Origin: Artemia franciscana
Taxonomy: Eukaryota > Arthropoda > Branchiopoda > Anostraca > Artemiidae
Reading direction: 5' to 3'
Assembly: GCF_032884065.1 (NCBI RefSeq)
Contig: NC_088865.1
Coordinates: 43,719,152-43,783,151, forward strand
Length of the DNA stretch: 64,000 nt
Every line of letters starts with the position of its first letter. Positions within the stretch are counted from its first letter, which is position 1. A program made the position numbers and the translations under genes. A model generated the notes under the pieces. It saw only the letters and a program-made list of their open reading frames with translations. It made no database searches and was not told the origin of the DNA. Positions 9,355 to 64,000 of this stretch are shown here, one piece after another.

Positions 9355-10385
9355 ATTAATTAAAAAAGATTTTCCAAAAAAAAGAAGTTTTTCAAGGAAA
9401 AGTTAAGGCTATATTAAACTTGAGATGAGAAGAAATAAAAACCTATAATAATTCAGACTCAAAACGACCAGAAATTATTATTAAAGAACAAATGAACCCC
9501 AAAACAAACAGAAATTAAATAAACAATCAAAGCAAACAAACATACAACAGGTCCTAATATAAATGAATAAATAAAACTTAAAACAAACTAAACTTAAACT
9601 GAATATGTAAATCAAGCTCCTTCCCTAAATGTCAAGTCCAAAACCTACAACAATTGATATCATTATATATAAAATATTCATTTTGATTTTATTAGTTGTT
9701 TCCAAAAAAAGACTTTTCAGTCACATACAGCTTTCACTACAAACAAAAGTTTGGCTACTGCCCCCTTTGCTAACTGTAAATATCTAAAGCCTACTGCATA
9801 ATTAACGCTTTGCTGAAAATGAATTACATTACAAATATTTGATTTTGTACTTTTTACAGCATTGAAAATAAAGATAAAAATTACAGTGAAATAAAATATT
9901 AAACTGATAAGCTTTCAGCACTCAATATCATTATATATCAAACATTAAGTCTAATTTCATTAGTTCTCTCCAAGACTGTTCAATACACATATAGTTTCCA
10001 GTATAGTGCCAGTGACACAGTAGGCTTTTACAGTTACAGAAGGGGACAGTAGCCAAACTCTTGCTTGCAGTGATTTTTGTTTGTTTTAAGCTGGATTTGC
10101 ATATTCAGTTTAAGTTTTACTCCTTTTAGTTTTATTTATTCAATTATATTTGTCCCTGTTGTATAATTATTTGCTATGATTGTTTATTTAATTTCTGTTC
10201 ATTTTGTTTATTTTATTTCTTTTTTATTTATTTGTGAATAGTAATTTCTGGTCACTTTGGGTTTGAATTGTTATAGATTTTTATTTCTGCTGATCTTAAA
10301 TTTAATATGGCCTTTAATTTTCATTGAACAACTTCTTTTTCAGAAACTTTTTCTGAATTAATTTGTTTGTTTTTGATAGCCAAAG
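9355..10385. repeat. Large inverted repeat, arms about 270 bp
   Basis: The left arm (about 9355-9620) contains AAGAAATAAAAACCTATAAT and ACAGAAATTAAATAAACAAT. The right arm (about 10075-10385) contains their reverse complements with mismatches (TTTATTTCTGCTGATCTTAA side and ATTGTTTATTTAATTTCTGT). The spacer of about 450 bp itself holds two direct repeats around CAATATCATTATATATCA (9650 and 9925). Parts of the right arm recur directly at 11040-11240 and 11340-11400. It may be a foldback element; no coding capacity is seen. Confidence 0.6.
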
Positions 10386-10497
10386 TTTCAAGTTTTTCAA
10401 CATTCCCCATTTCAATCTTTTTTTCAACATCAAAGTAACAAAGTAAATAAAGCATCGAAGTAAACAAAGTATCAAAACAATAATAAGCCACTTGCAC

Positions 10498-10990
10498 AAC
10501 TTACAGCCCTTTCCCTGGAAGCAGGCTATGTTTCAATCCTGGAAGCATAGTTATTTGGCCTTTGGACTATTTTGATCAAAATAGATATCCCAAAATTTTG
10601 ACTGAATGCATTTAGGGAAAAGGGGGTGGGAAGGGGCATGGTTGTACTTTGATCATGCATGGAGAGGGACATGGTTACTCTTAAAAAAAGAACTAGAAAT
10701 TTCAATTTCCAATTCCAATTTTGGAGCCCCCTCTGAAAATAATACAACCACCCCTTCCACAAAAACCCAACATGTTAACACAGGACAGATTCCATTACTT
10801 ACAGCCCTAGCCCTAGGACTGCTGGGGGTTTCACCAAACCTGGACCCCTAGTTATTTGACCCTAGACTAGTTTGAACAAAATAGCAAGGATGGACAGTTG
10901 CCCTCTAATCACTTTTGAATCTGAAAATGGGTAATAGAACTTCCAATCAAATGAGCCCCCTCCAAAGTTTATACAACTACTGCTTCCATA
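10498..10990 (+). repeat. Two direct copies of a TTACAGCCC repeat
   Basis: Units beginning CTTACAGCCCT start at 10499 and 10798. Each is followed by a GG-rich stretch, an ATAGTTATTTG/CTAGTTATTTG motif and AACAAAATAG. The same unit type forms the array at 15400-16770. Related wording also appears in the body of the foldback family, suggesting common ancestry. Confidence 0.5.
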
Positions 10991-11039
10991 TGAAGTTTCT
11001 CTGGGAAAAAAGTATAGATAAATAACAAAACATTGAAGC

Positions 11040-11430
11040 TATGTAAGATTTATTTATTCATCTATATTTGCACCAGTTATCTTTATGTTTACTATGACTG
11101 TCAATTTAAATTTCTGTTCTTTTTGGGTTTCATTCATCTTTTAATAGTAATTTGGGGTTGTTTTGAGTGTGAACTATAATAGGAATTAATTTATGCTGGT
11201 CCTGATTTTAATATGGCTCTTTACTTTTCTTGGAGGTTTGGACAATGAATATTTTTAAACTTTTTCATATCTTAGACTTATGAATTAAAATATATACAAT
11301 CATAAGTATTAGTTATTTATTGAATTGTTGAGTTGAATTATCATAAGAACTTATTTCTGCTTGTCTTAAGTTTAATATGGCTCTTTACTTTTCTTTGACA
11401 AGCTTTTTTGGGGGGGAAGTTTTTTTTATC
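11040..11430 (+). repeat. Partial direct repeats of the 10.1-10.3 kb arm
   Basis: Words such as TTTAATATGGCTCTTTACTT occur at about 11208 and 11372 and match the arm ending near 10320. The two copies are truncated and diverged. Confidence 0.45.
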
Positions 11431-11924
11431 AATTTCTGTCTGCTTTTGATTGCCTATATTTTTACTGGTTAATAGTAAAAAAAAAATCACCAATGCAACA
11501 GCACAAATACAGAAACAAATACACATCACAAAACTGAACACAAAAAATATAAGCTATATTGGTTAAACAAGATTTTCAATTCCATTTAGTTTTTAGGAAG
11601 TACAAATGACACTTGAGCCCTTGGGGGTTTAAAGGGCAGGGGAGTTACCAAACTTATTTATAGCACAGTACAGATTGTAGGGATGCAATTTTCATGGCAA
11701 CAACTGTTATGCTTGGAAAGACTGTTGCATGGAGAATCAAATGGTATAACTCATATGTTATTAGTCCTGGGGCTTTATCTGGCCCCCTTAGGAAGAAGGG
11801 TTGTTGATGCTCATTGAATCAAGATTCAATAGGTATTTTTCTTTTGCTATTAGACCTATAGTGTTTATTTTAGAAAATAAATCTTACACCAGTATTACTA
11901 ATCAAAGCTAATCAAAGTTCACAG

Positions 11925-13245
11925 TCTTCTAGAGGGAGAAGGAGTGGAGGTAGGTACTTCAAAATACCTTCCCAAGATACACATGACATACTTTAATTGG
12001 CCAATGTTCCTCTTACCTGAACAATTGTTTAGGGTCATGAAACTATTGTTAATAGATGCATTTTGACTTTTTGAACATCTTTTCTCTCTTGCAAAACTAC
12101 TGCAAACTCACCATTATGGAATTATTCCAGCCCAAATATTCTTGTATTTACACATAGGCCTATAGAATTGTAATCATTTCTGTTTTCATTGATTGAATAT
12201 TTGAAATTGTGGATCTGTAATAGTTTAGAAACAAATTTGGGCTATATATTTGCACATTAGGGGGGTGAGGGTAAAGCAGAGCATATATTAAATACATAAA
12301 CTAACCATTGCTGTATTTAATATATGCTATTCTTTACCCCCCCCCCCCTAATATGCAAATATATAATAACTCCATAATGGTGAGTTTGTAGTAGTTTTGC
12401 AAGAGAGAAAAGATGTTCCAAAAGTCAAAATGCATCAATTAACAATAATTTCATGACCAAAAACAACTGTTCAGGTAATAGGAACATTTACCATTTAATC
12501 TGTAGAACCATCCTTGAAAGAATCATTTTCCTAACCTAACCCCTTTCCAAAATAGCAAAAAGTCTCTAAACTAGTATTTTAACCAAATTAGGGTAAAATT
12601 CTAGTTAATTGACTTCTTGCTATCTCAGAAAGTGTTTATGTAAGGAAAATGAAACTTTCAGGGATGAATCTACAGACTAAAGTATGTCCTGGGAAAGTAT
12701 TTTGAAGTAACTACCTCTACTCCTTCTCCCTCTAGAGGGCTCTGACCTTTCATGACCTTTAAAAATATGTGTCTTATAAAAGTGAAACACTGCAAAACAG
12801 ATCTTCTGCTTAATTGAAGTACAACAAAATTGTTTTCAGCTTCACAACTTTGCTCAATTCCATTTTATAAGGTTTTAAAGATATACAAATACATTTCCTA
12901 AATTTTGAAAAAAAAACGTTGTTATAGGTCAAAATTCTACTCAAATAACGGAAATTGCATTTTCAGACCTAAGGGCAGAGAAAAAGCAATTAGTAACTGA
13001 AAATTAAGGTAAAATGTTGTTTTGTCAAAATTTCAATAGATATAGACCTGTCATGTAGGCAAATTTCAGGGCCCAGTAGAGGGAGAAGGAGTGGAGGTAG
13101 TTGCTTCAAAATACCTTCCCGGGACATACTTTAGTCTGTAGATTCATCCCTGAAAATTTCATTTCCCTTACATAAACACTTTCTGAGATAGCAAAAAGTC
13201 TCTAAACTAGGATTTTACCCAAATTAATATTAGGTAGGGGCTATA
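11925..13245. repeat. Nested inverted-repeat complex
   Basis: An inner palindrome is centred near 12315. TTGCAAAACTACTGCAAACT (12093-12112) is mirrored by AGTTTGTAGTAGTTTTGCAA near 12383, and the CTGAACAATTGTT side near 12018 by its complement near 12465. An outer pair is formed by 12590-12752 and 13076-13240, both containing TCTCTAAACTAG, GGGATGAATCTACAGACTAA or its complement, and CTCTACTCCTTCTCCCTCTA or its complement. A third copy of the GAGGGAGAAGGAGTGGAGGT block lies at 11931. The arrangement is typical of foldback elements inserted into or rearranged with each other. Confidence 0.75.
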
Positions 13246-13510
13246 TTGTCAGAAAAACAACCATGATAGCCCAGGCAGACTGGGCTATTGAAAAGAGCAT
13301 AAATAAGGAACCTAATGGTACTACAATTATCAACATGTTTACTTCAGAAGAGCTGCAGCTCTACAGGGTAGCCTTAAAATCTGTTTAGAAGATTCAGATT
13401 ATGTCAATCTCTTGTAACTATTCTATTTTCTAATATGGTATGATTTATTACCGATTTTCGAAAACACGTTAAATGCTATTCAAATTTTCTTTACTTTCTA
13501 AAGGCAAATG

Positions 13511-13608
13511 AATATTGTTCTAAAGATGGCAGTTCTGGATTTTACTATAGCTGCGTCGGCATTGGCCGTTTTGGGAAAACTGGACGTAAAAGTTATCGTC
13601 GGTAGATC
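13511..13608 (+). CDS. Possible first coding exon of an unknown gene
   Basis: An ATG at 13510 (with a TAA in frame just upstream) and a second in-frame ATG at 13528 in a good AAAGATGG context open a 32-codon stretch. It includes MAVLDFTIAASALAVLGKL and ends at a potential donor GTAGAT near 13606. The peptide is hydrophobic and Ala-rich and could be the start of a membrane or mitochondrial protein. I recognise no family, and no second exon. In the duplicate at 62140 one G is missing just before the donor, which changes the phase. Composition is slightly richer in GC than the flanks. This could be chance. Confidence 0.2.
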
Positions 13609-14039
13609 TTCATGCCTTTTATTTTCTTCTTTTGTCTGCTTTTGTTGGGCCAAGTTAAAACAACAAGAAGGTTTACAGCCCTAAAATATTTATTTTAGCC
13701 CACGAATTTAAACTTGTTTGTGAGGTTTTATATTAGTTTTAATATTAAGCCCATTGAAATATATCCAATGAAAAATAAGCAGTTTTTTTTTAAAGCAAAT
13801 GAATTTAGATTGATCAATTTTATTTTAGAAGCCTTGTATTTTTTTAAAATTAATTTGGAAAATTTTTTTTCACAAAAAAAGTTTTCAAAGAAAAGTAAAG
13901 AGCTCCATTGAGCCAAAAACGAGCAGAATAAAGTCAAATAATTCTCCCAAGCGTTAAACTACCACACTCACTAGCAATAAATAGATGTTAGTTTGTTCTG
14001 TTGTGATTTAGTTCAACATCTGCCAAAATATTCCCTAAG

Positions 14040-15330
14040 ACCTTTACCTTAATACCCTTAGCTTGCAAAGTACCAATAGTTTTAGCAGCATTAGTAGCAG
14101 TATGTGCATAGCGCTTTTAGCTTCTTTAACATCCCCTTCAATACATGCTGAAAGTTTCAGCTTAATACCATCAACCGTTCCAGAAGCATTTCTAATGCGT
14201 CCGCTTGACAACCTGAGTGAGCATAGTGTGTTTCGAACTAGTTCTATACATTTTCTATATAGCCCAAAATGTTCACCTTAATATCCTCAGTTTAATAGCA
14301 GTATTAGTAGTAGCAGTAGAATTAATTGTAGTAACCTAAGCTTTAGTGGCAGTAGTAGTAATAGAAGTAGTAATAATAGTAACAGTAATAGTAGTATGAA
14401 TAGAAGCAGTAGCAAAAGCATGCAAATATTTTCTTGTGATTAGTTCAACATCCCTCACAACAAGCTCTGTCAGTTTCAGCTTCACACACCAAACTGTTCC
14501 TACGATATTGCTGTTACACCCTTTTGACAACCCACATACAGACGGCATGCTGTAAGTCAGTTCTCCTTCCCTCCCCCCCCTCAAATTTTTTTGAAAGTTT
14601 CACCTTCACACCCTTAGGCATAGTTGTAATAGTAGTAACAGTAATAATATTGATATTACTAGTAATAGGATTGAATAAAGGTAGTACTACTAGTTGCAGA
14701 AGCATTAACATATTATCTTTTCGTCAGTAGAACCTCCCTCCCATCAATTCCTAGAAGTTTCAAATTCATACAATTAGCCATTGCTAAGACATTGCTGACA
14801 TGTCCTTATGATAACCTGTATGTTCATATACTTCTTGAAATTTTGATGTCAATGCTCTTAGCCCTAAAAGTAGACAAGTAGTTGCAACAGAAGTAGTAGT
14901 AGAATTAGTAGTAGCAGTAGTATATTAGTAAATGTAGCAGTAAGTGTGAACATATTCCCTTTCAATGAAAAGATCTTTCGCTTTAAACATTCTCTTAAAG
15001 TTCCAACTTAATACCCAAATCAATTCTTGAGAAAGGCTTTTTTGACAATGTGGATGCACGTGGCGTCTTATGATTTAGTTAAAGTTTCCCCTCAATATTG
15101 TAAACGGAGTATGGTTTTAGTAGTGGTGCTGGTTGTAGTAGTATTGGTAGCGAGCAAATATTGCCTTTTTGATCATCTCCCTTATCATTTCATGAATTTT
15201 CCAAATTAATATACTCAGTTATTCATGAGTTAAACCCTTTTGGCAATCTGTATACACATAACATGCTCAACAATTCCCTCAATATTCTCTGAAAGGGTCG
15301 CCTGAATGGCCCTCGTCTTCTTGAAATTTC
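14040..15330 (+). repeat. Degenerate tandem array with AGT/AGC cores
   Basis: Five diverged units of about 190-320 bp can be aligned on a motif like CTTTTGACAACCCACATAC (14198, 14521, 14807, 15045, 15235). Each unit has an AGTAGTAGCAG-rich core (14085, 14345, 14625, 14895, 15115) and a block resembling AAGTTTCAGCTTCACACC. The AGT runs produce long reading frames on both strands that are low-complexity and not genes. Confidence 0.6.
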
Positions 15331-15399
15331 AATTCAAACATGTATTCCTTTCTCATTAACATATACTATGTGTAAACAATGAACGAATTGCCTAATTGC

Positions 15400-16770
15400 C
15401 TAGCTTACAGCCCCTGGCCTGAGGACTCTTGGGAGGTATATGTTTGAGGTTGACATCCCTAAAGACATAATTACTGGATCTTTCAACAATGCTGACAAAA
15501 TAGCTCTTTTAAAATTTCGATCGGATGTGTAAAAAAGGGGAATGATAGGCTTGGGGGGGCTGATTGCCCTCCTTTCACTTTTGACTCTTAAATAGGCACT
15601 AAAACTTCCAACATCCAATCAAATGAGCTCCTTCCAACCCAAAGTTTATACCACCATCCGTTCCATAAAAAGCTTATATACCCCGGGGCATAACTTACAA
15701 CCCTTGCCCATGGCCCGGGGGATTGTTTCCGCCCTAAAAATATTGTTATATAATTTTTGGACTCTTGGTAACAAAATGGCTATCTAACAATAATTAAATG
15801 CGTTTCGGGAAAAGAGGATGTCAGGGAGGGGGGAGGATATTTCGGAGGGGAAGAGAAGATGTATCAGGATACGACATGGGAAGAGAAGACATATCATACG
15901 ATATGTGTGTGTGGGGGGGGGTCGTCCCCTGATCACTTTCACTATTAAAAAGGGCACTATAACATCTGATTTCAATACCAATGAGCTCCATCCGGTGTTT
16001 ATACGACCACTCTTTCCACAAAAGCCTTATATGCCCTCGGGGTATAACTTAAAATCCTTCTGCTAAGGGTTATGGAGGGGAGAAGGCTGTCATCCTCGAA
16101 GACATTGTTTCCAGACCTCTAAACTGCGCTAAACAAAATGGCTATCTCAAAATTTTGATTAAATGCGTTATGGAAATTCATGGGTGTGGGGGGGAGCTTG
16201 TTGCCCTCCAATCACTTTTGACTATTAAAAAGGGCACTAGCTGTTTCAATATTCAGCCAAATGAGCCTTTTCCGAAGTTTTTCCCACAACAAGTGGCCAT
16301 CTCAAAATTTCTATCAAAGAAATTTTGGGAAAATACGAGGTATTGGGGGGTATCAGCACTCCAATTACTTTGAACCTTAACAAGAGCAGTAAAACTTCTG
16401 ATTACCAATCCAATGAGCCACCTCCAGAGTTTATGATTGCCTGTTTCTACATTTTCTATAAAACTTTATATACCCCAAGGGCATAACTTACAATCCTTGC
16501 CCTGAGAGCTGTGGGGGGGGGGGCTATCATGCTCAATGACATAGTTTCTGGATCTCAAAATGCCTATCTCAAAAATTTGATTGGATGTGTTTGTGGAAAT
16601 GATGAGCGTGGGAAGGGGGTTAGTTGCCCTCCAATCACTTTCAACTATTCAAAAGGGCACTAGCCCATTCAATTTCCAATCAAATGAGCCTTTTCTGAAG
16701 TTTTTAAGACAACTCCTTCAATACGAAGTCCCCTGGTCTAAGAAAAACCAGGCCGAAAATATACAATAAA
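15400..16770 (+). repeat. Tandem repeat array, units of about 290-440 bp
   Basis: About four units begin with CATAACTTACAACCCTTGCC or similar (15402, 15686, 16041, 16481). Each unit continues with a G-rich run, GACATAGTTTCTGGATCT, AATGGCTATCTCAAAATTTT, TTGCCCTCCAATCACTTT and AAAAAGGGCACTA. Several of these words also occur in the body of the foldback family (for example 26120-26250), so the array probably derives from it. Open frames here repeat with the unit and are not genes. Confidence 0.7.
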
Positions 16771-16999
16771 TAAATAATAAATTGTGCCCACATCGCTATT
16801 TACTGAAATAGCGCTATTGCGCTGCCTATGATAATTTCACTTCGGCACACCAATACCTTAGAATTAGGGCGTTTAATGAGGCAGGTGACACCACTCTTAT
16901 TTTTATTGACAATATGACATCTGTTTGTTTTAAATTTACGCCTACTATTCATTCTGTCAAAACGTGACAACAATATATCTGACTTGACTTAGCATTTTA
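16771..16999. other. AT-rich spacer with small palindrome
   Basis: GCTATTTACTGAAATAGC at about 16794-16811 is a short palindrome next to GCGCTATTGCGC. Related wording (CGCTGTATAAGTAAAGAACG, CGCTACCTAAGTAAAGAGCG) occurs near 47350 and 43817, so this is probably a fragment of another dispersed repeat. Confidence 0.35.
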
Positions 17000-18960
17000 G
17001 CTGTATTGGGGCTTCTTGTTTTCTGAAAATTTGATGACTATGGTGGCAATATTTTAGCCGATCCGGCATTTGTCGGATTAGTTGACGGATGCTTTAGATC
17101 TGGAAGTCATCAATGCATCTCTTGCAACATCGGCCTTGGGGGGTGCACATTCTCTACTCGTTCTTTGAAGGTAGTTTTTGGTAGCCCATTGGCTGACAAT
17201 TGTTGAGTGTGATCAAGCCTAGGAATTGTTGAACTTTCATCCGGTCCACGATTGTATGGTAGCAGTAAAAGATTTTACTCTGGTTTTCTTTTGATACTTG
17301 GTCTGCTTAGGGATCCTTCTTATGCGATGGAAGCATTTGATTTCAACTGCAGGGATTCTTTGTTCATCAACCGTTTGTCCAGGTTACCCTTGATTATAAA
17401 GCAATCAGGATATTTAGAGAGCTAAATACTCGTACCTTAGAGATACTGGCAATGCCGTGCTTTTCCAAATTGGTTTTAGACCTTTCAAGCTAAAACTGGT
17501 CAAGCCAAGTCTTTGCCTGATCTATTTTGAGTGAACATCGTTAAGAATTTGGTCTACCTACACTACGCAGTTCGACAAAGGACTCGACGTTTTCAAATGG
17601 TTCTCTAATGATTATTTACTGAACAGCTTCTGATGAAGGGGCTCGAGATACCCCCACGACCTTGGTTCTAATTGTGCTTATGATCCAAAAGGCTTCAATT
17701 GCTGACACTAGCTCATCAGTGTCTGCACAACAAACAAATACAAATTTAGAAACAATAGGGAAAATGTCCAAGGGCCGTCTTCAGCACAATACGAGAATGA
17801 GAGAGAAAATATGCATATATAAATAAACTTACATTAAAATGTGAGAATTAAAACTAATAATGTTTTTTTTTAAACTTTATAAAGAAAAACTTTAAAAAAA
17901 AACAGCCATAGCATCCTCACTTCAACGAAATTCAACCAGGACTGACAAAAAGAATCAAAATTTTCAAGTGTCTACTTGAAGAAGATGTTCTAGGTTGTTA
18001 AATTTCACAATATTGTCTGCATATACCAGTTTGTCAATTAGTTTCACGCCAACCACTTTGTTTTATAGTTTTGATAAGCAATAGTGTAGCGTTAAGGAGA
18101 AAGTGAAACAGGTTTAGAGATAAGATACAAACCTTTAAAACGCCTGCTGATGTGAAATCATTTCTATCTGTCAGTTTAAGGGGCCTCTTGACTTGAATAC
18201 TGAACTTCGAATGCATGTCCCGAATCAGAAATATCACATTTTATTGGACTTTCATCTGTCAATTTCCGTATTCTCTAGTGTAACAGGATATGACAGAATC
18301 CCTCTCTCCAAATCATAATAAAAGCATGTTTGAAATCAATAAAGAGTAATAACAGCTTTTTTTGTACATTCGATGTATTTCTTCATCATTTGCCGGGTTG
18401 AAAAAATATGATGTATGACGGAGCAGTGTTTTCGAAAACCGATCTGATGTTCCTCTATGATATGATGTGTGACAGACTTTAGTCGGTCTATGAGGATTTT
18501 TGTGAGAGTTTTTCCGGATAAATTGCCAGGCTTTTTGGTCTGTAGTAGTTACAGTTTTCCCCTTCTTTTTAAAAGAGGTACGAAATTGCCTTTCGCTCAA
18601 GACCTGAGAAGCCCTTCCTTTCCCAAACATTAATCTTGGCCTGGGGTAGATATCTATCAATTTTATGGACCTGATTTAAGCAGTTTTAAGTGGATACAAT
18701 CCGGGCTAGGGTTTTGCTCATCTTAAGGGACTTTATGGCTGAGAATACTTCATATCCTAGTGAATAGGTCTTGGGTCTTGTTATTTATCTTGGTAGTGGA
18801 AAAGACTATAGAATGCTTAGGTGGAGCCCAGCTTTCACAGAAACGTTCTTTCCACCATTCTTTCCTTTCTCTTGAGTTTTTGATGGGAAGTCGTATTTAC
18901 CCAACAGTATGGGATTGGCTGAGGGGTTCGTTTTCAATAGTTTACGGATTTTTTTTTTTT
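17000..18960 (-). pseudogene. Non-LTR retrotransposon reverse transcriptase relic
   Basis: Reading the minus strand downward in several frames, the order of RT blocks can be followed. There is a linker with AIKSLKMSK near 18720, a YYRPKSL-like block near 18540, HQIGFRK near 18440, FIDFKHAF near 18345, and LVYADNIVKF near 18015, which corresponds to the catalytic YADD box with the second Asp changed to Asn. A C-terminal region with KCFHRIRRI follows near 17330. Many stops and shifts separate them, so the copy is dead. The order and spacing match endonuclease-type LINE polyproteins; the endonuclease part is absent or beyond recognition. Confidence 0.7.
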
Positions 18961-20020
18961 TACAATGAAGTGACTGTCTCCATTATGGGACTACCTTTAT
19001 AAATTTTTCACATTCACGATACATGTAGTTGACGGATTGCCTCAGAACCATTATAGACGTGAACTGAACTGAAATGTATATACAATTGGTATTGAAATTT
19101 ATAAATCCCATCCTTATCTCCGTAAGTCGATTTTTTTTATTATTCTTTGTTGTTGTTTTTTTACATTTCTTTCTTTCTTTTCCTCTGTGTTCCGTGAGAG
19201 ATATCTAATTGTAGTTTCTTTTTTTATTGTCTATATTATTAAGTGAGACATAACGAGTTGCCTTTTGTCTCCTTTTGTAGCGTTTTTATCTAGCGTTATG
19301 TATAGCGAATTTAGTGCATAAAGTCAAATTATTCACAACGCACTTAAAGGGTATAGGACCTTGTGTGATCTTTCTTGAAATTTGGGCTGTAACCAACACC
19401 TGATACGATCTAGCTCGGAATACCAAGCATGGTAAAAACTATGGTGAAAATTAGAAATAATTGTGCAAATTTAGAATACATTCTATTCCTTGTTTTAGGA
19501 TGCTTTTATTAGAATTTCAGTCTGATAAACCTCAAAAATCCGAATTCGAACTATGATAGAAATTTGAAGTCATCTACAATTTTCAATAGCGTGAGGTAGT
19601 GGAGGGGACTTAGCGTGTTAATAGTTAAAGGCTTTCTGACTTGTTGTATGTTTGCTTTTAAAGTTGTAAAAACCATTAGTAAAAATTGCTCACCTTAATG
19701 TTTATAAATAACTTTTAGTCTTGGCTACAAGATACAAACTGTTTCAACTTTCACTACTCTGTTTTTCTTTAGATTTCTTTTTTTGTTTCTTTTTTCTTCT
19801 ATTTTTTTTCTTTTTGTATTTTTAAAATAATAACCAATATGTAAAATATCAGGGTAGTAGTCTAAAAAATGGGCTTACAATACGATTTCCAAAATGAAAT
19901 TCTTATTACTTGTGCTACCTTGATTTTGTGTAAACTGTACTGAAATAACCCTGAGTTTTTACTCTAACATTTGGTATGGAAAGCCTATTCCCGATTTCGT
20001 GAAGGATGACTTCAATCAAG
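18961..20020. other. T-rich intergenic DNA
   Basis: Runs of T and CTTT words, no recognisable coding exon, RNA or repeat boundary. Confidence 0.5.
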
Positions 20021-20021
20021 A

Positions 20022-20175
20022 TTTTTTTTTTTTTAACAACGAATAAATTAAGGTGCAGAAACCTGCACAATTCAATCTACCGACAAAATTGAGCACACCG
20101 TCTGGCCCAAACCCCTGATCTTAAGATTCTGAGTCTGATAAGATTCTGAGCCTAAGCTAGTCGAGCTTAGTTAAG
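20022..20175 (-). mobile_element. tRNA-derived SINE, copy 1, with poly(A) tail
   Basis: The minus strand carries CAGACTCAGAATCTTAAGAT, then GGGTTTGGGCC (20114-20104) in the position of a B box, and ends in a poly(A) tract (T run at 20022-20034 on the plus strand). It matches the copy at 20895-21035. The A-box side is scrambled by a partial duplication of the TCAGAATCTTA segment. Confidence 0.5.
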
Positions 20176-20384
20176 ACGTTTTTAAATAAATTTTAAACTA
20201 TTCCTTTGGAAATGCTCGCTTGTGAAGAGAGAAAATACCACATCTCCTTTAATCGGATGATTTCTACCTCGGTGCTTAGAATCGTCCATTATCTGTTTTT
20301 CTCCACAAATTCAATCTTTACCTAAAAAGTCAAACTCTTACTTTCTCTAAAAAATAAATAAAATAAAAAAAAAAACAAGAAAAA

Positions 20385-20480
20385 TCTCAAGCATACAACC
20401 CCGAGATAGATAGTCTGTTGCTCTACATGTTGGGCTGCTAAGCCTGCACCCTGGGCTTACTAGTCAGCTTTATGCCTATA
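20385..20480 (-). repeat. Possible third tRNA-like SINE fragment
   Basis: The minus strand has TTAGCAGCCCAACATGTAGAG, recalling the D-arm of a tRNA, and CTATCTATCTCGGGGTTGTA in the region expected for anticodon and T arms. The B box is poor. It lies between two better SINE copies. Confidence 0.25.
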
Positions 20481-20894
20481 GCGTGTGCATTGACGTTTGG
20501 AAATAAGTGGGTTTTCCAGACGTGTTTTCTGAGAGAGCAACACACATTCACCAATTACGTCAAGGAATAGCCGTGAACTCTGTCGGATAACAGGGATAAT
20601 AAAGAAATAAACGTATCGTAGATTCTTATGAGAGGATTAGAATAAAATTATTCCTTCTGTACAAAATTTTAATTTGCCTTGTTCCCTCTCCAAACAAAAG
20701 TGTTTCCGAAAGTTTCAGTTCAATCCCCAGGCTGTAAGACAAAACACGCTAGTATAAAAAAATCTTTAACTTTGGAAATTTTCATTTACAAAGAGAAAAG
20801 ACCCACTCCCCACCCCTCTGTTTGAATTCGTTATCCAGCTTCGTGCGTAAAATGCTCTGATATTGATCTTCCTTCGCAGGTACGTTTTTTTCTT

Positions 20895-21035
20895 AAAAAA
20901 GAATTTTCTTGATAATTTACTTTCTACCAACTTTCTACCAAACTCAGCACAACGTTAGGCTCAAATTCCTTATCTTAAGATTCTGAGTCTGACGCTGCAC
21001 CAGCTGAGCAAATCGAGCTTGTTGGTTGCTTTTAC
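20895..21035 (-). mobile_element. tRNA-derived SINE, copy 2 (Met/Ile-like head)
   Basis: On the minus strand an A box TTGCTCAGCTGG (21011-21000) is followed by GCAGCGTCAGACTCAGAATC and a B box GAATTTGAGCC (20968-20958), at the spacing of a class I tRNA. The head resembles elongator tRNA-Met/Ile. Acceptor pairing is lost, so it is a SINE head rather than a tRNA gene. The tail region is T-rich on the plus strand. Confidence 0.6.
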
Positions 21036-21039
21036 AACT

Positions 21040-22490
21040 TTGATGTAGCAATATATAGAAATAAACAAGTCTCCTATAAATAGGTTTTTTTCTGGAGTTC
21101 AAGACACATTAATTATATAGTGAGGCAACATTTTACCAAAATGTTTATAGATGGCGTAACATGTCTGACCACCAAAAATAGACCCATCGACATCGTTTAA
21201 CACAGTTACTTGTTATCTATTATATCTTAAGTCAAATTTTTATTTTTGACATTTAAGTTCTCATTTGACTTGATTTAGTTTTTTAGAGACAAGAAAACTA
21301 TAGAAGTAAACTTGCATTTTGGAATTAGTTGAAGAGAAAAGAACTGGAGTATTACGACGAATAGAAGACAATTTTAAGAATCGAGATACTTGCGAGTGCA
21401 TTGTCTGACTACAGCCAATACTACAGTTTTCCACGCACATAGACAGTTTTGCTTATTGATTAATTTCGAAATTTAGCAAAAAAGACATTGAAAGAATGTC
21501 AACTACTCTTTGAAGAGCCTACAATAATATCCGTATGAGCCTCGCTAAATTTTTTATCGATAAACCCAAAATGAAAAAACATTTTCCTAGTTTCAAATTT
21601 TTAAGCGTCCAGACCTAATCTAGCTTAATTTGTTCTTTCTGAGCATGAAAGTTGAAAGGGAAACGCTTGTTTTGGGCTTAAATACAGTATATCTTCCTAC
21701 ACTATATACGTATTTTGCAACTCATTTTGCGATAAGTCATAATTACAGGGCTTTAAGGAGGGGCCAAAGGTTTAAGGAGTTAAAAATGGGTCTTTTTACG
21801 GAAAAAAGGACCTTCCCAACACCGAAGAAAGGACCAATAATGGCCTGATCCAGCTATCATTTATCGCGCAAATGGAATCAACGTTATGATCAGTATTCAA
21901 ACCAATATCTCATAAATCTGAAACCAGGACGGTCGGCAATGTAGTGTCATCGTCTTCTGGAAAGACATGGGTAATATCAAGATGATCCGACCCCTTGACT
22001 TTCCATATGGATCTTCTCGGGTTTATCTTTTTCTTCATGTTCAACTATGAAGGTACAAATATAAAAAAAAAAAATACACAAGTAGCTACTTCGATTAATT
22101 ACCAGAAAATCATCTTAAGAAAGCAACTTTTCAAAATCATTTATTTCTTGTTTTCTGCTGTTTTGTCAGGTTTAGCTTCCTTTGGACCTTCATAAGTGCA
22201 GTTATCTGCAACTGCCTTTATTTCTGCATAAAGTATCGAAGTATTCTTCACAGCTGCTGATTCCTTTTTCTGTTAGGTGTGCAACAGAAGTGAGCCATCC
22301 AGCATTGTTTGGGCGACCTGAATTTTAATCAGTTTTCTCAGTGTCCATTTTAGGCCGATTTCTCACTTCTTGAAATATGCTGTCAGCAGCTTGCTCCTTG
22401 TACCCAGTGGCTTTTTTTCCTGTAGTAAATTTTCAAAAATCTTTATTCTTTACTTGCTGGAAAAAAGTTCTGCTAGCATTTACTTTTTCT
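21040..22490. other. Intergenic DNA without recognised features
   Basis: AT-rich sequence with several short open frames of no recognisable family. I see no splice-consistent exon, repeat boundary or RNA gene. Confidence 0.45.
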
Positions 22491-22502
22491 TCAAGCTTCC
22501 AT

Positions 22503-22878
22503 CAGAGGCGCCATTTGGACCAAATCTTGGGGTGGGCATGAACTCCATCTTGGGCCCCCCGACTCACTTCGTGTCACGTAATCGTCTAGAAAATGGGCAT
22601 TTAACAGAAATCGAGAATTTTATTATGTATCTTACATACTTTCAAAGTTTACAATAATTAATAGCAAATAGCGTAATTACCCCAAGGGTCGTCAAGTAAT
22701 TACGCTCTTTGGTTAATAGGCGTGCAGTAATTTCAAATCAATTGGACAGAATGGATTACGTTGGACATAATGGATTATTATGGCCGGCAAAGGGCCCTTT
22801 GTGGTGGAAGCTTGGGCCCCCCTGGAAAATCTGGGGTGGGCAATTGCCCACCCCTGACACCCCCAAATGGCGCCTCTG
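22503..22878. mobile_element. hAT-type MITE with perfect TIRs and 8-bp TSD
   Basis: The element begins CAGAGGCGCCATTTGG and ends with the exact reverse complement CCAAATGGCGCCTCTG. It is flanked on both sides by GCTTCCAT (22495-22502 and 22879-22886). An 8-bp target duplication and a CAGAGGCG-type terminus are hallmarks of the hAT superfamily. Length is 376 bp, with no coding capacity. Subterminal GGGTGGGC motifs occur near both ends. The intact ends and duplication suggest a fairly recent insertion moved by a transposase encoded elsewhere. Confidence 0.92.
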
Positions 22879-22889
22879 GCTTCCATTGT

Positions 22890-24985
22890 TCTTCTTCACT
22901 CTTTTTTTCCTGCTTCCTCTGATTCTCTCGATAACTTTCGTCAATTGGAACGACTTTCTTGTTTCACAGTCGTTGTTTTGATTGACGATGGGTAGAGTAT
23001 TTTATTACTGAAGAAAGTAACCTACCCATGTCCTTCTTGCTTTGATACCATTTGCAAAAAAGTTCAAGTATAAGACATGAATTCAAAACCTCACAGATTT
23101 TAGTCTAGGCCCAGAGCAAGGCCATGAGCCATTTCATAAGCATGCCAATCTAATACTAAGTGTATGGGGATGAAAAATGGAAACATAAAGATCTAGTCGG
23201 TTTAGCTTGGGCTCTCCGATGAGGAATTTTCGAACATGGCGATACAAGTGATGTACTTTTTGATATGAGGTCATTTTTGAGAGGACAAGGCGTGTTTTTT
23301 TTTTTTTTTTATTTTGAAATAAAAATTTCGGGACTACAACTTAATAATGAGTTTAAAGTGAATAACAGTACCACTCCTGGATTTCTTTTGATTAAGTACT
23401 TTTTAGCATTAATTTCTTTAAAACCATTTCTCTTTTAATTTTCGGTCACTATGGCTCGAAGATTGTTCTGTACTAGGTTGTAGCTACCACTGCAACAATG
23501 ACACAAGGGTCAGGAACACAAGGGTTTGACATAAATGGCTAATTTTGAGAAGTTATTAGTCCATTAAGAGCAAGTTGAGAAATATGTCAAATTTTCGGGA
23601 ATACAGATTTAAAAGAACGAATACAAAAAAGCTCGGCAGCTAAATCACTCCAGTGGTAAAGGGCATCAAATCTCTTCGTCCATCATTATCAAGAAGACCT
23701 CGACATTGTTGCCTTGAAACTATTCCGCAATCTGCAAGACACCAATGATCACTAATGCAATAAAGACTTCTTAGCTGAAGTATTGACAAGGCTTAACCGT
23801 GCAAAAAGGGATTTGAGAGCTGTTTTAAGGACCTACTCCGGGTTAGGGACCTTGTGGCAGCCCTCTAATTAAGGCTTGGCAATAAGCAATTTTTTAACTT
23901 TTAATGTTTTGTTTGCTGCTTCGCAAGTGTTCCACGGGTCCCTTTTAATTTCGGACAACTGTCTATTCCAATATTAGTCTTAGATTTGTAATCAACAACC
24001 TCTTCAATAGAACTGTTGTTTGATAAACTAAATTAGAAGTCATCAGAGCGACATATAGGCGACATGGTACAACGGTCTACATCGAACAGCAGACTTACCA
24101 GGCATCAAAACAAACTATAGCCATGCAAATTTTGCATCAACGGTTTTGCAAGCTTTTTGTAGACTATTTCGTTAGTGGATTTAACAAGTGACCCCTTTTT
24201 TATATGTATTTTGTGAGTTTAAAAGTACATCATTTACGAATTATTTTAAATTGCTATGATAGCTGCTTAAATAAACCAATACGAATATGCTAATTGATCC
24301 TTAATTGTCAGAGACTTTATTAAGAGTTCTTGCAATGTGTATGACTCTTAATAGAAGTCGACGTATCTCTAGGGCGCTAAGACGACTTTAAGCTGCTTTT
24401 TGTGACCCTCTGGTATTTTTTTTCGTGTGGATATTCTCATCTCTTCAGGAAAAAAAGATTGACAGAAGTTAAAAGGTAATTACTTCAGATCTGTCAGGTG
24501 TTTTAATTAAATCTCGCGAAGAATCCCTAATCTATAACACATTAATGATTTATCTATTATTTATGCACCAATAGCTTTACCTAACTACCTAGTGAATATG
24601 ATGCATTAAACGTAAAAAAAAGTTAGTCTATTAACTCATTATCTTATTATTTATCGGTTCGTTTGTTTCTTCTGCAGATGATTTAGTTTTTTCTTATCTC
24701 TGTCTCTGAAGTATTAAAATCAGAGTGTTGCACGTTAAGTTCGTTTGCTAAATGTTAATTTCCTTTTTTTTATTCATCTTACACTACTGTTCTGTTGCAT
24801 CTTTTCTAAGTGGGTTATATTTGAATATGTTATTTTATTTGCAACGGGACAATATGTAGGCTTCTTGTTTAGTTTTGCTAGAAACGAAACAATCATGTAA
24901 AAAGTGTGGTTGCAAGTCAGAAATGGGCTAATGATGTCTCTACCATAGAGTTTGGGAAGCTTATAAGACTGGGTACTGGCGCTAG
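22890..24985. other. Intergenic DNA, poly(T) tract, no gene recognised
   Basis: Includes a T run at about 23288-23309. Conceptual translation of 24030-24190 on the plus strand gives an open stretch, but no family is recognised. Confidence 0.4.
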
Positions 24986-26685
24986 TACCGATTAAATAAA
25001 AAAAAAACAAGTTCTTTAAATGAAAGTAAGGAGCGACATTAAAACTTAAAACGAACAGAAATTACTCCGTATATGAAATAGGCTTTTCCTTCTCAACGCC
25101 CCGCTCTTTACGCTAAAGTTTGACTCTTTCTCTTAACTCTACATTTTAAAACCGTAAAAAACTTTAGCGTAAAGAGCGGGGCGTTGAGAAGGAAAAGCCC
25201 CTTTCATATACGGATTAATTTCTGTTCGTTTTAAGTTTTAATGTCGCTCCTTACTTTCATTTAAAAAACTTGTTTTTTTATATTTAATTTCAGAACGTTT
25301 TTGAATCAATGCATGTTTTGATTTTGGCTCTCCGCAGAGGAATAATTAAAACGAAATTTGTATATTTGTTTTTTTTTGGCTAAATGGCTTTCTCATAATT
25401 TTGATTGAATGATTTTGAGAAAAAAAGAGCGGGGGAGGAAGCCTAGTTGCCCTCCGATTTTCGGTTAATTAAAAAGGCAACTAGAACTTGTAATTTTTTA
25501 CGAATCTTTTTATAAGTAAAAGATATACGTAACTTATAAATTAGCTTACGTAAAGAACTTTTGTATTCTCATGTTTTTATTACATATATGAGGGGGTTCG
25601 CCCCCTCGTCAGTACCTCGCTCTTTACACTAAAGCTTAAATTTTGTCCCAATTCATTAAGAATGACCCCTGAATCACAAAAGCCGCAGAATAAATAGTTG
25701 AAATTACTAAAAATACTTTAGCGTAAAGAGCGAGGTATTAGGAGGAGGTGAGCCCCTCATATAGGTAATAATTTCTGTTCGTTTTAAGTTTTAATGCTGC
25801 TGCTTACTTCCAGCTGAAAAAAAACTTTTTCATATTTATTTTTTCATTGTTTTTTTAAGTAATGCAAGTAAATCCTGCGCTCCCTTCATGGAAATTTTCT
25901 TCCCCCATGACAAATTCCTCGATGGAAAGCTCCCCCAGCATATCCCCCTCTTCTCAACCCCTGCCTCCAACCAAAAAATCCTCCTGAAAACGACTGTACA
26001 CTTCCCAATAACCATTATTATATGTAAGCACTCGTCAAAGTTTTTGAACTTGTAACCCCTCCCACGGGGACTGGGGGGGAGTAAGTCGGCCCCAAAGACA
26101 TAGTTATAAGGTTTTTCGACTACGCTGAATAAAATGGCTATCTCAGAATTTTGATCCGTTGACTTTGGGAAAATAATTAGCGTGGGAGGGGGCCTAGGTG
26201 CCCTCCAATTTTTTCGGTCACTTAAAAAGGGAACTAGAACTTTTCATTTCCGTTAGAATGAGCCCTCTCGCAATATTCTAGGACAACTGGTTCGATACGA
26301 TCACCCCTGGGAAAAAAACAAACAAATAAACACGCATCCGTGATCTGCCTTCTGGCAAAAAATATAAAATTCCACATTTTTGTAGATAGGAGCTTGAAAC
26401 TTCTACAGTAGGGTTCTCTGATACGCTGAATCTGATGGTGTGATTTTCGTTAAGATTCTATGACTTTTAGGGGGTGTGTTCCCCTATTTTCTAAAAACGC
26501 AAATTTTCTCAGGCTCGTAACTTTTGATGGGTGAGACTAAACTTGATGAAACTTATATATTTAAAATCAGCATTAAAATGCGATGTAGCTATTGGTATCA
26601 AAATTCCATTTTTTAAAGTTTTGGTTACTATTGAGCCGGGTCGCTCCTTACTACGGTTCGTTACCACGAACTGTTTGAAAAGGAA
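24985..26685 (+). mobile_element. Foldback-type repeat element, copy B (near full length)
   Basis: It begins with ATTAAATAAAAAAAAAACAA and a strong palindrome (25025-25262). The palindrome arms contain GCTCTTTACGCTAAAGT and its complement, and CCGTATATGAAA and its complement. A second hairpin lies at 25580-25800. The body (25880-26640) holds CCCTCCAATTTTTTCGGTCA, GTAGGGTTCTCTGATACGCT and AACTTTTGATGGGTGAGACT. The right end is CGTTACCACGAACTGTTT, complementary to the start of the copy at 52265. Length about 1.7 kb. No transposase. Confidence 0.75.
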
Positions 26686-27003
26686 AACTTCATTGCCATC
26701 TAGCAATTAGTATTTCTCATTTATCAAACCTCATAATCGCTTTTTTCTTCTTGTTTTGGAAACTGGGATTAGGCACTTGTTACTAAACTAAATTTGGCTT
26801 GTTTTTACGCTAAAGAATGCTAAGCAGCATCACACGCCAGATAGTGCTAGTGATTTTTTCAAAACCAGCGCCAATTTCCATTCTTGAAAGTCAAACAATG
26901 TCTTCACTGTGGCGTTGGCAAACGAAGCCGGGTTTTCTGGCATCTCCAGACCAGTTTCCGTTGGTAATTTTGAAGGCTGAAAAGATCAGGTGCAATTGGA
27001 GCG

Positions 27004-27035
<32 letters not shown>

Positions 27036-28038
27036 GAAAAGTCAAATCCGGTAAACGATAGCTATTTCTACTTGACTTAATTCGCCTGCTAAAGCCACAA
27101 TGAACAAATGAACCTTACTCTTTCCCCTGGCCTATGAGACCTTCAAACATTGAGGCTCAAGAGTCAACATGAAGTTCCATCAGTCCTTTCATCAACGCAC
27201 TCCAAATAAGCTATTTTCAAGCATCAATTGATTTTTTAATGTTTTCTTTTCTGAACAAAATCTGTTGGAGCTTGATTCCGTGACTTATCGTTCAAGATAA
27301 AAATTAATTTTTCATATTTTCATCAATTTTGTTAGTCATTTTTTAAATGTTTTCATCAATCAATCTTCATCAATTTAAATGTTTTCTTTTCCCAACAAAC
27401 TCTGCTGAAGCTTGATTCCCAGACTTATCGTTTAAGGTAAAAACCCATGGCTTGTGAACATAAGAGTCTCTGTCTAACTGGTTTGAGTAATTCGAAAAAA
27501 ACTGTAGACCCACAAGTGTAGACCTACAAATTTACTACTCATAGGTCGAGAACTGACTCGTAGACATTTATAGAACAAAAAAGGAAAAAAAGATGATCCT
27601 CACTCCAAACGAACACCACCATTTTAAACATTTTAACAATACAGTACATTTTGTGAATACAATACATTTTAACAAATAGGTGAACAACCATTTTTCAACA
27701 GGAATAGTGAAGATCTCAGAGTTTGGAAAGGAGAGAAAAACCAGTCCACCTTATAAGGCAGTTCACAGTGATACTATGTTGTCTAATTCACCAGTGTCAG
27801 TTCTGAACACCAGCAGTCATGGAGGGGAGGAGATCTATGGCGTAGTTTTTGCCTGTTCGTAATACAGCGAATTAAGAAGCAAATATGAATTATTTTGAAG
27901 GCATGTGAAAATCATTTGAGTCCTTCTGTGGTATGATCCCCTGTCCAAAACCCGTTATTTGTCTAAAAAATCTGAATGATTAATTCAAAACAAACGTTTT
28001 GTATTCAAAACGAGCGACTGAAGATACATCTAACAAAA
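26686..28038. other. Nop56 downstream region with poly(T) and a direct repeat
   Basis: A T run occupies about 27004-27033. A 62-bp diverged direct repeat, both copies containing AATGTTTTCTTTT and GCTTGATTCC, lies at 27239-27300 and 27379-27440, offset 140 bases. No gene is supported, and no canonical AATAAA is seen close to the Nop56 stop. Confidence 0.5.
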
Positions 28039-59747
<31,709 letters not shown>

Positions 59748-60034
59748 CTAAAAATGAAATATTATCATTCCTTGTGCTTAAGTACATAGGAGGAGGAGGG
59801 GGCAAGTCACTTATTCAAATTTAGGGAAAGATCTGTTTTTGTTTTTCAATTTATGAAAAACTGAAATTACAGTACCAAAAAACTGTTTTTTAAAGAAAAT
59901 GGCAAAAAGGGTGTTTTTAATCTGGAGGGGGAGGGAAACCAAGAAACACAACACAATTCCCCCTTCAATTGACATGCTGATTTGATTCACTCCAAAATAT
60001 TGTTTTAAAATGAAACAACTAACATATAAGAATA

Positions 60035-60134
60035 NNNNNNNNNNNNNNNNNNNNNNNNNNNNNNNNNNNNNNNNNNNNNNNNNNNNNNNNNNNNNNNNNN
60101 NNNNNNNNNNNNNNNNNNNNNNNNNNNNNNNNNN
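60035..60134. other. Assembly gap, 100 N
   Basis: Exactly 100 unknown bases, a conventional placeholder. The right flank is the first base of the duplicated segment. The Nop56 start exon should lie at or beyond this point in the minus-strand direction. Confidence 0.99.
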
Positions 60135-63100
60135 AGTTTTTAGGAAGTACAAATGACACTTGAGCCCTTGGGGGTTTAAAGGGCAGGGGAGTTACCAAAC
60201 TTATTTATAGCACAGTACAGATTGTAGGGATGCAATTTTCATGGCAACAACTGTTATGCTTGGAAAGACTGTTGCATGGAGAATCAAATGGTATAACTCA
60301 TATGTTATTAGTCCTGGGGCTTTATCTGGCCCCCTTAGGAAGAAGGGTTGTTGATGCTCATTGAATCAAGATTCAATAGGTATTTTTCTTTTGCTATTAG
60401 ACCTATAGTGTTTATTTTAGAAAATAAATCTTACACCAGTATTACTAATCAAAGCTAATCAAAGTTCACAGTCTTCTAGAGGGAGAAGGAGTGGAGGTAG
60501 GTACTTCAAAATACCTTCCCAAGATACACATGACATACTTTAATTGGCCAATGTTCCTATTACCTGAACAATTGTTTAGGGTCATGAAACTATTGTTAAT
60601 AGATGCATTTTGACTTTTTGAACATCTTTTCTCTCTTGCAAAACTACTGCAAACTCACCATTATGGAATTATTCCAGCCCAAATATTCTTGTATTTACAT
60701 ATATAGAATTGTAATCATTTCTGTTTTCATTGATTGAATATTTGAAATTGTGGATCTGTAATAGTTTAGAAACAAATTTGGGCTATATATTTGCACATTA
60801 GGGGGGTGAGGGTAAAGCAGAGCATATATTAAATACATAAACTAACCATTGCTGTATTTAATATATGCTATTCTTTACCCCCCCCCCCTAATATGCAAAT
60901 ATATAATAACTCCATAATGGTGAGTTTGTAGTAGTTTTGCAAGAGAGAAAAGATGTTCCAAAAGTCAAAATGCATCAATTAACAATAATTTCATGACCAA
61001 AAACAACTGTTCAGGTAATAGGAACATTTACCATTTAATCTGTAGAACCATCCTTGAAAGAATCATTTTCCTAACCTAACCCCTTTCCAAAATAGCAAAA
61101 AGTCTCTAAACTAGTATTTTAACCAAATTAGGGTAAAATTCTAGTTAATTGACTTCTTGCTATCTCAGAAAGTGTTTATGTAAGGAAAATGAAACTTTCA
61201 GGGATGAATCTACAGACTAAAGTATGTCCTGGGAAAGTATTTTGAAGTAACTACCTCTACTCCTTCTCCCTCTAGAGGGCTCTGACCTTTCATGACCTTT
61301 AAAAATATGTGTCTTATAAAAGTGAAACACTGCAAAACAGATCTTCTGCTTAATTGAAGTACAACAAAATTGTTTTCAGCTTCACAACTTTGCTCAATTC
61401 CATTTTATAAGGTTTTAAAGATATACAAATACATTTCCTAAATTTTGAAAAAAAAACGTTGTTATAGGTCAAAATTCTACTCAAATAACGGAAATTGCAT
61501 TTTCAGACCTAAGGGCAGAGAAAAAGCAATTAGTAACTGAAAATTAAGGTAAAATGTTGTTTTGTCAAAATTTCAATAGATATAGACCTGTCATGTAGGC
61601 AAATTTCAGGGCCCAGTAGAGGGAGAAGGAGTGGAGGTAGTTGCTTCAAAATACCTTCCCGGGACATACTTTAGTCTGTAGATTCATCCCTGAAAATTTC
61701 ATTTCCCTTACATAAACACTTTCTGAGATAGCAAAAAGTCTCTAAACTAGGATTTTACCCAAATTAATATTAGGTAGGGGCTATATTGTCAGAAAAACAA
61801 CCATGATAGCCCAGGCAGACTGGGCTATTGAAAAGAGCATAAATAAGGAACCTAATGGTACTACAATTATCAACATGTTTACTTCAGAAGAGCTGCAGCT
61901 CTACAGGGTAGCCTTAAAATCTGTTTAGAAGATTCAGATTATGTCAATCTCTTGTAACTATTCTATTTTCTAATATGGTATGATTTATTACCGATTTTCG
62001 AAAACACGTTAAATGCTATTCAAATTTTCTTTACTTTCTAAAGGCAAATGAATATTGTTCTAAAGATGGCAGTTCTGGATTTTACTATAGCTGCGTCGGC
62101 ATTGGCCGTTTTGGGAAAACTGGACGTAAAAGTTATCGTCGTAGATCTTCATGCCTTTTATTTTCTTCTTTTGTCTGCTTTTGTTGGGCCAAGTTAAAAC
62201 AACAAGAAGGTTTACAGCCCTAAAATATTTATTTTAGCCCACGAATTTAAACTTGTTTGTGAGGTTTTATATTAGTTTTAATATTAAGCCCATTGAAATA
62301 TATCCAATGAAAAATAAGCAGTTTTTTTTTAAAGCAAATGAATTTAGATTGATCAATTTTATTTTAGAAGCCCTGTATTTTTTTAAAATTAATTTGGAAA
62401 ATTTTTTTTCACAAAAAAAGTTTTCAAAGAAAAGTAAAGAGCTCCATTGAGCCAAAAACGAGCAGAATAAAGTCAAATAATTCTCCCAAGCGTTAAACTA
62501 CCACACTCACTAGCAATAAATAGATGTTAGTTTGTTTTGTTGTGATTTAGTTCAACATCTGCCAAAATATTCCCTAAAACCTTTACCTTAATACCCTTAG
62601 CTTGCAAAGTACCAATAGTTTTAGCAGCATTAGTAGCAGTATGTGCATAGCGCTTTTAGCTTCTTTAACATCCCCTTCAATACATGCTGAAAGTTTCAGC
62701 TTAATACCATCAACCGTTCCAGAAGCATTTCTAATGCGTCCGCTTGACAACCTGAGTGAGCATAGTGTGTTTCGAACTAGTTCTATACATTTTCTATATA
62801 GCCCAAAATGTTCACCTTAATATCCTCAGTTTAATAGCAGTAGCAGTAGAATTAATTGTAGTAACCTAAGCTTTAGTGGCAGTAGTAGTAATAGAAGTAG
62901 TAATAATAGTAACAGTAATAGTAGTATGAATAGAAGCAGTAGCAAAAGCATGCAAATATTTTCTTGTGATTAGTTCAACATCCCTCACAACAAGCTCTGT
63001 CAGTTTCAGCTTCACACACCAAACTGTTCCTACGATATTGCTGTTACACCCTTTTGACAACCCACATACAGACGGCATGCTGTAAGTCAGTTCTCCTTCC

Positions 63101-64000
63101 CTCCCCCCCCTCAAATTTTTTGAAAGTTTCACCTTCACACCCTTAGGCATAGTTGTAATAGTAGTAACAGTAATAATATTGATATTACTAGTAATAGGAT
63201 TGAATAAAGGTAGTACTACTAGTTGCAGAAGCATTAACATATTATCTTTTCGTCAGTAGAACCTCCCTCCCATCAATTCCTAGAAGTTTCAAATTCATAC
63301 AATTAGCCATTGCTAAGACATTGCTGACATGTCCTTATGATAACCTGTATGTTCATATACTTCTTGAAATTTTGATGTCAATGCTCTTAGCCCTAAAAGT
63401 AGACAAGTAGTTGCAACAGAAGTAGTAGTAGAATTAGTAGTAGCAGTAGTATATTAGTAAATGTAGCAGTAAGTGTGAACATATTCCCTTTCAATGAAAA
63501 GATCTTTCGCTTTAAACATTCTCTTAAAGTTCCAACTTAATACCCAAATCAATTCTTGAGAAAGGCTTTTTTGACAATGTGGATGCACGTGGCGTCTTAT
63601 GATTTAGTTAAAGTTTCCCCTCAATATTGTAAACGGAGTATGGTTTTAGTAGTGGTGCTGGTTGTAGTAGTATTGGTAGCGAGCAAATATTGCCTTTTTG
63701 ATCATCTCCCTTATCATTTCATGAATTTTCCAAATTAATATACTCAGTTATTCATGAGTTAAACCCTTTTGGCAATCTGTATACACATAACATGTTCAAC
63801 AATTCCCTCAATATTCTCTGAAAGGGTCGCCTGAATGGCCCTCGTCTTCTTGAAATTTCAATTCAAACATGTATTCCTTTCTCATTAACATATACTATGT
63901 GTAAACAATGAACGAATTGCCTAATTGCCTAGCTTACAGCCCCTGGCCTGAGGACTCTTGGGAGGTATATGTTTGAGGTTGACATCCCTAAAGACATAAT
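60135..64000. repeat. Duplicated segment, copy 2
   Basis: Same orientation as 11588-15471, offset 48,547 at the start and 48,529 at the end. It carries its own copies of the nested inverted-repeat complex (about 60470-61785), the possible exon (62051-62147, one base shorter before the potential donor) and the AGT array (62580-63860). It begins exactly at the N gap and runs off the window. Confidence 0.97.

Follow-up and report, generated by a model that had tools for sequence, protein, structure and literature searches.

A probable unmerged allelic overlap at an assembly gap and an apparently false second copy of Nop56 in Artemia franciscana

A terminal overlap between neighboring contigs

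The 64,000-bp stretch of the Artemia franciscana genome analyzed here (hereinafter the window; C3:43719152-43783151, C3 being sequence NC_088865.1 of assembly GCF_032884065.1) contains one complete copy and the beginning of a second copy of a long direct repeat that includes nearly all of Nop56, the gene for nucleolar protein 56, with a 100-N gap between the copies. Sequence comparison makes it very likely that this repeat is an unpurged heterozygous overlap, a single locus that would have been assembled twice on neighboring contigs which were not overlapped, giving the appearance of a tandem duplication. An ordinary assembly artefact yielding a false second Nop56 is the most likely source of the repeat.

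Comparison of the window with itself using BLASTN aligns 60135-64000 with 11588-15471 on the same strand, with 99.38% identity over 3,884 columns, compared with 80.5% identity over 1,362 columns for the next off-diagonal match by score. The first-pass annotation of the window had reported this near-identical, same-orientation repeat with 'about a dozen differences', and this description is borne out by global alignment, which gives 6 substitutions and 5 indels (one of 6, one of 9 and three of 1 bp), the second copy being the shorter in all five. The reported coincidence of the left edge of the second copy with the gap is likewise exact: the single N run in the window, 60035-60134, consists of exactly 100 N and is followed directly by base 60135, the counterpart of base 11588. 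In the sequences flanking the copies on the left (9588-11700 compared with 57035-60034), only chance-level similarity was found (best E 0.064).

The size of 3.9 kb given in the same annotation did not survive, however, because position 64000 is the end of the window and not that of the repeat. With 140 kb added on the right and 60 kb on the left (264 kb in total; coordinates above 64000 carry the window numbering on past its end), the full repeat comprises 11588-60034 (48,447 bp; C3:43730739-43779185) and 60135-111152 (51,018 bp; C3:43779286-43830303), which are collinear and both on the forward strand. The first of these copies is the terminal part of the left contig, and the second is the initial part of the right contig, of which the first 3,866 bp (60135-64000) fall within the window. 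The homology begins at the very first base of the right contig, whose first 60 bases are identical to 11588-11647; at the far end, base 60034, with which the left contig terminates, aligns at 111152, beyond which the right contig carries on. The overlap is an exact match between the suffix of the left contig and the prefix of the right one. From the counterpart of the most upstream Nop56 exon (110658-110864) past 111152 and up to 204000, the right contig contains no N. The 264 kb include just one further N run, 45 kb to the left of the window.

Searching the genome (1.27 Gb in 6,468 contigs) with 60200-64000 identified two full-length copies, both in the window, with the best 40 candidates scored and 158 matches counted; each of the remaining listed matches spans no more than ~1.4 kb of the query. 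For the final 3,035 bp of the left contig, one other full-length place was identified, C3:43827258-43830303, with 94% identity, among the best 40 of 2,043 candidates scored. A transposon or another dispersed repeat was considered as the cause of the 3.9-kb match and rejected, given that only two full-length copies were detected in the genome search and that the match runs for 48 kb across a gene, even though it does contain a dispersed foldback repeat.

We infer that the copies represent alleles and not paralogues, and that the animal was probably diploid and heterozygous at this locus. The left contig would have followed one haplotype through the locus and ended at 60034, within the intron preceding the 5′-most Nop56 exon found; the right contig would have been built from the other haplotype, beginning 48 kb further back, at the allele of 11588, and running past Nop56; the scaffolder would then have set the two contigs side by side with a 100-N gap, leaving the overlap untrimmed. 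Such untrimmed scaffolding of two haplotype contigs would place both edges of the homology on contig ends to the base, would leave the copies adjacent and in the same direction, and would result in patchy divergence and in the presence of Nop56 in both copies, as detailed in the next two sections.

The argument, made in the first-pass annotation, that a true duplication would not break precisely at a gap is weak when taken alone because contigs often end at repeats, but gains strength from the finding that both edges of the homology fall on contig ends to the base. From the accompanying interpretation, a misplaced haplotig or contig misjoin with two alleles, it can be retained that the copies behave as alleles, both of which were kept, and that the gap and the repeat stem from one assembly event; the misplacement and the misjoin find no support because the suffix-prefix match has the order and orientation of true neighbors, with the trimming of the overlap as the step that would have failed. 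The contigs look correctly ordered, and the redundant part looks to be only the first 51 kb to the right of the gap. An overlap of contig ends also changes the remedy: one copy is redundant and the contigs can be joined, so that the right contig need not be moved elsewhere.

Divergence between the copies

Over the whole overlap, a single fast global alignment, in which badly aligned low-complexity windows are included, contains 46,131 aligned bases with 971 mismatches (2.1%), as well as 166 indels, of which 10 reach at least 50 bp. Divergence was therefore also estimated from clean 500-bp windows, defined as containing no more than 15 gap columns. Of the 96 full windows, which exclude the terminal 447 bases, 70 are clean, and they give an overall value of 1.24%. 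This average conceals a mosaic: the part of the overlap at 11588-23000 diverges by 0.31% (23 clean windows), whereas the part at 23000-60034 is patchy and diverges by 1.70% (47 clean windows), and the index of dispersion over the 70 clean windows is 4.95. Uniform divergence would be expected of a tandem segmental duplication that originated in one event, and the mosaic, being unlike the product of one duplication event of one age, counts in favor of alleles, although gene conversion could give the same dispersion.

The copies also differ by large insertions. A dispersed repeat of 1,687 bp at 24990-26676 (forward strand) is present in the first copy and missing from the second at about 73717, and two inserts, 78477-80239 (1,763 bp) and 90495-92473 (1,979 bp), are found in the second copy only. 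All three match elsewhere in the 264 kb, the 1,763-bp insert only partially. Patchy divergence combined with insertion differences is the look of two haplotypes with differing local ancestry, as far as sequence comparison goes, a look that gene conversion could also lend to real paralogues.

Of the 73 one-base indels, 44 are shorter in the second copy and 29 in the first (P = 0.10); among those in runs of fewer than 6 bases, the respective numbers are 29 and 13 (P = 0.02). As a sign of a poorer consensus in the second copy, this homopolymer bias is suggestive only.

Nop56 in both copies

Four minus-strand exons in the first copy jointly match chain 7mq8_SA, nucleolar protein 56, which we take to be the human protein, with E = 3.6e-140. 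From the most upstream exon found, these are E2 at 59541-59747 (counterpart in the second copy, 110658-110864), E3 at 55157-55510 (106247-106598), E4 at 47471-47656 (98584-98769) and E5 at 41052-41306 (90075-90329). Further coding pieces on the same strand within 28042-37326, namely 37180-37326, 33853-33948, 30748-30951 and 28042-28125, are probably the remainder of the gene; they were assigned by eye, from features that we presume to be characteristic of Nop56. Exon E2 ends 287 bp before the end of the left contig, and its alignment starts at residue 4 of chain 7mq8_SA, so that the Nop56 of the left contig appears to lack its 5′ end, which should lie beyond 60034, that is, to the right of 111152 in the right contig.

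Searching the genome with the four exons resulted in 11 matches: four in the first copy, five in the second (exon 3 being split in two) and two on C12, with 45% and 64% identity, to a relative that is presumably Nop58. Over all eight Nop56 pieces (511 codons; 2 gapped ones excluded), the two copies differ by 9 synonymous and 2 non-synonymous changes, compared with a non-synonymous share of 74% expected without selection (P = 0.00018); the four search-tested exons alone show 8 synonymous differences against 1 non-synonymous one in 334 codons. Both the synonymous excess and the two exon sets obtained in the genome search count in favor of alleles.

The first-pass annotation had further held that, on its reading, the sequence to the right of 60135 is out of place upstream of Nop56. 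This is not what the extended view reveals: 60135-111152 is itself the second Nop56 copy, and the sequence beyond 111152 probably does lie upstream of the gene. If the overlap is left in place, the assembly contains a false second Nop56, one copy being cut at a contig end and the other having a broken frame in exon 3, together with ~50 kb of false sequence that would mimic a recent segmental duplication or a duplicated single-copy gene.

Relation to published false duplications

The geometry and the symptoms of this overlap, by analogy, match those of published false duplications (PMC2864568, PMC8081667, PMC9516828 and PMC7203741, each cited here from excerpts). The duplicated overlapping contigs (DOC) of Kelley and Salzberg 2010 (PMC2864568) are defined in the excerpt by alignments that exceed 300 bp and 95% identity and lie no more than 300 bp from the end of each contig, the contigs being either adjacent or separated by one mis-assembled contained contig. 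In the present case, there are 46,131 aligned bases, 97.9% identical when gaps are not counted, 13 of the 15 collinear BLAST blocks exceed 95% identity (the other two are at 94.97% and 92.1%), the homology lies 0 bp from the relevant end of either contig (the start of the right one and the end of the left one), and only the 100-N gap lies between the contigs. The likeness thus extends to the facing ends of adjacent contigs that align, with homology reaching both ends, an arrangement explained in the excerpt by two haplotypes of one locus; the difference from the cases in that excerpt is the overlap of ~50 kb, located in a 56-Mb scaffold.

Among the heterotype false duplications of Rhie et al. 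2021 (PMC8081667), the legend of Extended Data Fig. 5a includes a 'flanking contigs' pattern, and this is the pattern that the present overlap displays, with an assembly gap (60035-60134) between the copies on one scaffold; of the heterozygous k-mers that characterize this class, the assembly sequence offers the differences between the copies. Unlike the pattern in that legend, divergence here is still ~3-5% at the end of the left contig, which puts the right-hand merge point at another place. Among the signs of false duplications, the excerpt of Ko et al. (PMC9516828) names half depth and a gap separating the copies. According to the part of Guan et al. 2020 (PMC7203741) used here, heterozygous overlaps are retained in highly heterozygous species, such as most insects and marine animals, and, to the knowledge of those authors, Scaff10X, SALSA and similar scaffolders do not handle them; the present case resembles the heterozygous overlaps that purge_dups removes, as described there, in that an overlap, rather than a contained haplotig, was kept among the primary contigs.

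Alternative explanations

The explanation that fares best after an unmerged overlap of alleles is that a unit of 48-51 kb containing nearly all of Nop56 has really been duplicated in tandem, with the junction exactly at the gap, the Nop56 of the first copy devoid of its 5′ end and that of the second complete. The neighboring, same-strand copies and the suffix-prefix geometry agree with such a duplication, the divergence of up to 5% in well-aligned kilobases and the insertion differences would fit an older event, and the broken frame of exon 3 in the second copy could be decay. However, the gap would have to coincide with a single junction base without any sequence being lost to its left or right, the divergence is not uniform (0.31% compared with 1.70%), and the truncated and full copies of Nop56 still look constrained in their codon differences (9 to 2), although an old, separate copy of a gene that appears to have lost its 5′ end should decay. 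A true tandem segmental duplication would be expected to have assembled sequence running across its junction; the junction here is the N gap, where sequence is unassembled, which is not the same as absent. The excerpt of Ko et al. (PMC9516828) describes a gap between the copies as typical of false duplications; no such gaps were found for the true ones that it names. On balance, a real duplication of this kind is very unlikely. A variant, in which a polymorphic or fixed tandem duplication of ~50 kb with nearly all of Nop56 was kept similar at one end by gene conversion and its junction was lost in the gap, would accommodate the mosaic and is, if anything, slightly harder to credit.

Several observations weigh against an unmerged overlap of alleles. 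A true tandem duplication with its junction exactly at the gap gives the identical suffix-prefix geometry. Exon 3 of the second copy (106247-106598) loses its frame through two 1-bp deletions, which lie in short runs separated by 22 columns, and these could mark a decayed paralogue instead of consensus errors. The last six kilobases of the left contig are still 2.7-5.0% divergent per kilobase, and with divergence this high at its end, the termination of the contig is not explained by the merging of haplotypes.

Two other gaps, where the artefact might have recurred, also gave negative results. The other 100-N gap in the 264 kb (C3:43673611-43673710) shows no overlap within 14,459 bp of its left contig. 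A stretch with a foldback repeat occurs in three copies with the same layout (C6:19544155-19546064, C6:19730445-19732354 and C239:84727-86635); a copy on C6 (L006) and that on C239 (L007) are 99.5% identical over 3,627 bp, flanks included, and the C6 and C239 copies are possibly another retained haplotype. The two copies on C6 are 186,290 bp apart with a 100-N gap between them, and the edges of an overlap were predicted beforehand and 8 kb around each was examined. The prediction failed: the last 904 bases of the left contig have no match >200 bp in these 8-kb stretches, and the start of the right contig has only repeat-like matches there, at 72-88% identity. Further gaps between the copies, or copies of another origin, may account for this failure.

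Two allele-like copies next to a gap could also result from the erroneous insertion, upstream of Nop56, of a contained haplotig or of a foreign contig. The right contig, however, is not contained but continues past 111152 with no further N run up to 204000, and its match with the left contig takes in the entire tail of the latter, final base included, which is what a true neighbor would show. The foreign contig is accordingly hard to believe in, and the misplaced contained haplotig is rejected on geometry, each contig extending beyond the overlap. A homotype false duplication, one haplotype assembled twice through read errors, is barely conceivable, despite the position at a contig boundary and the chance that some of the 73 one-base indels are consensus errors: homotype duplications at boundaries are about a read length in the excerpt of Rhie et al. 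(PMC8081667), compared with 48-51 kb, 2% substitutions and kilobase insertion differences here.

Repeats within the overlap

The foldback repeat of ~640 bp is located at 61126-61765 and 12586-13225 and consists of 165-bp arms, 90% complementary and 310 bp apart. Tens of dispersed copies are present in the genome among the matches listed, with 87-96% identity, and the repeat folds far better than 20 shuffled sequences (z = -22). Another dispersed repeat, of ~715 bp, lies between two Nop56 exons at 57625-58338 and accounts for 38 of the 40 matches, 90-92% identical, that were listed when the genome was queried with the final 3,035 bp of the left contig. The segment 48373-50000 is internally repetitive, with self-matches at offsets of ~290, 564 and 857 bp that are 76-80% alike, and is related, at ~78-79%, to the insert 90495-92473 of the second copy. 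Finally, 35626-35937 is a long self-complementary simple repeat of the TA type that is 171 bp longer in the first copy in the alignment.

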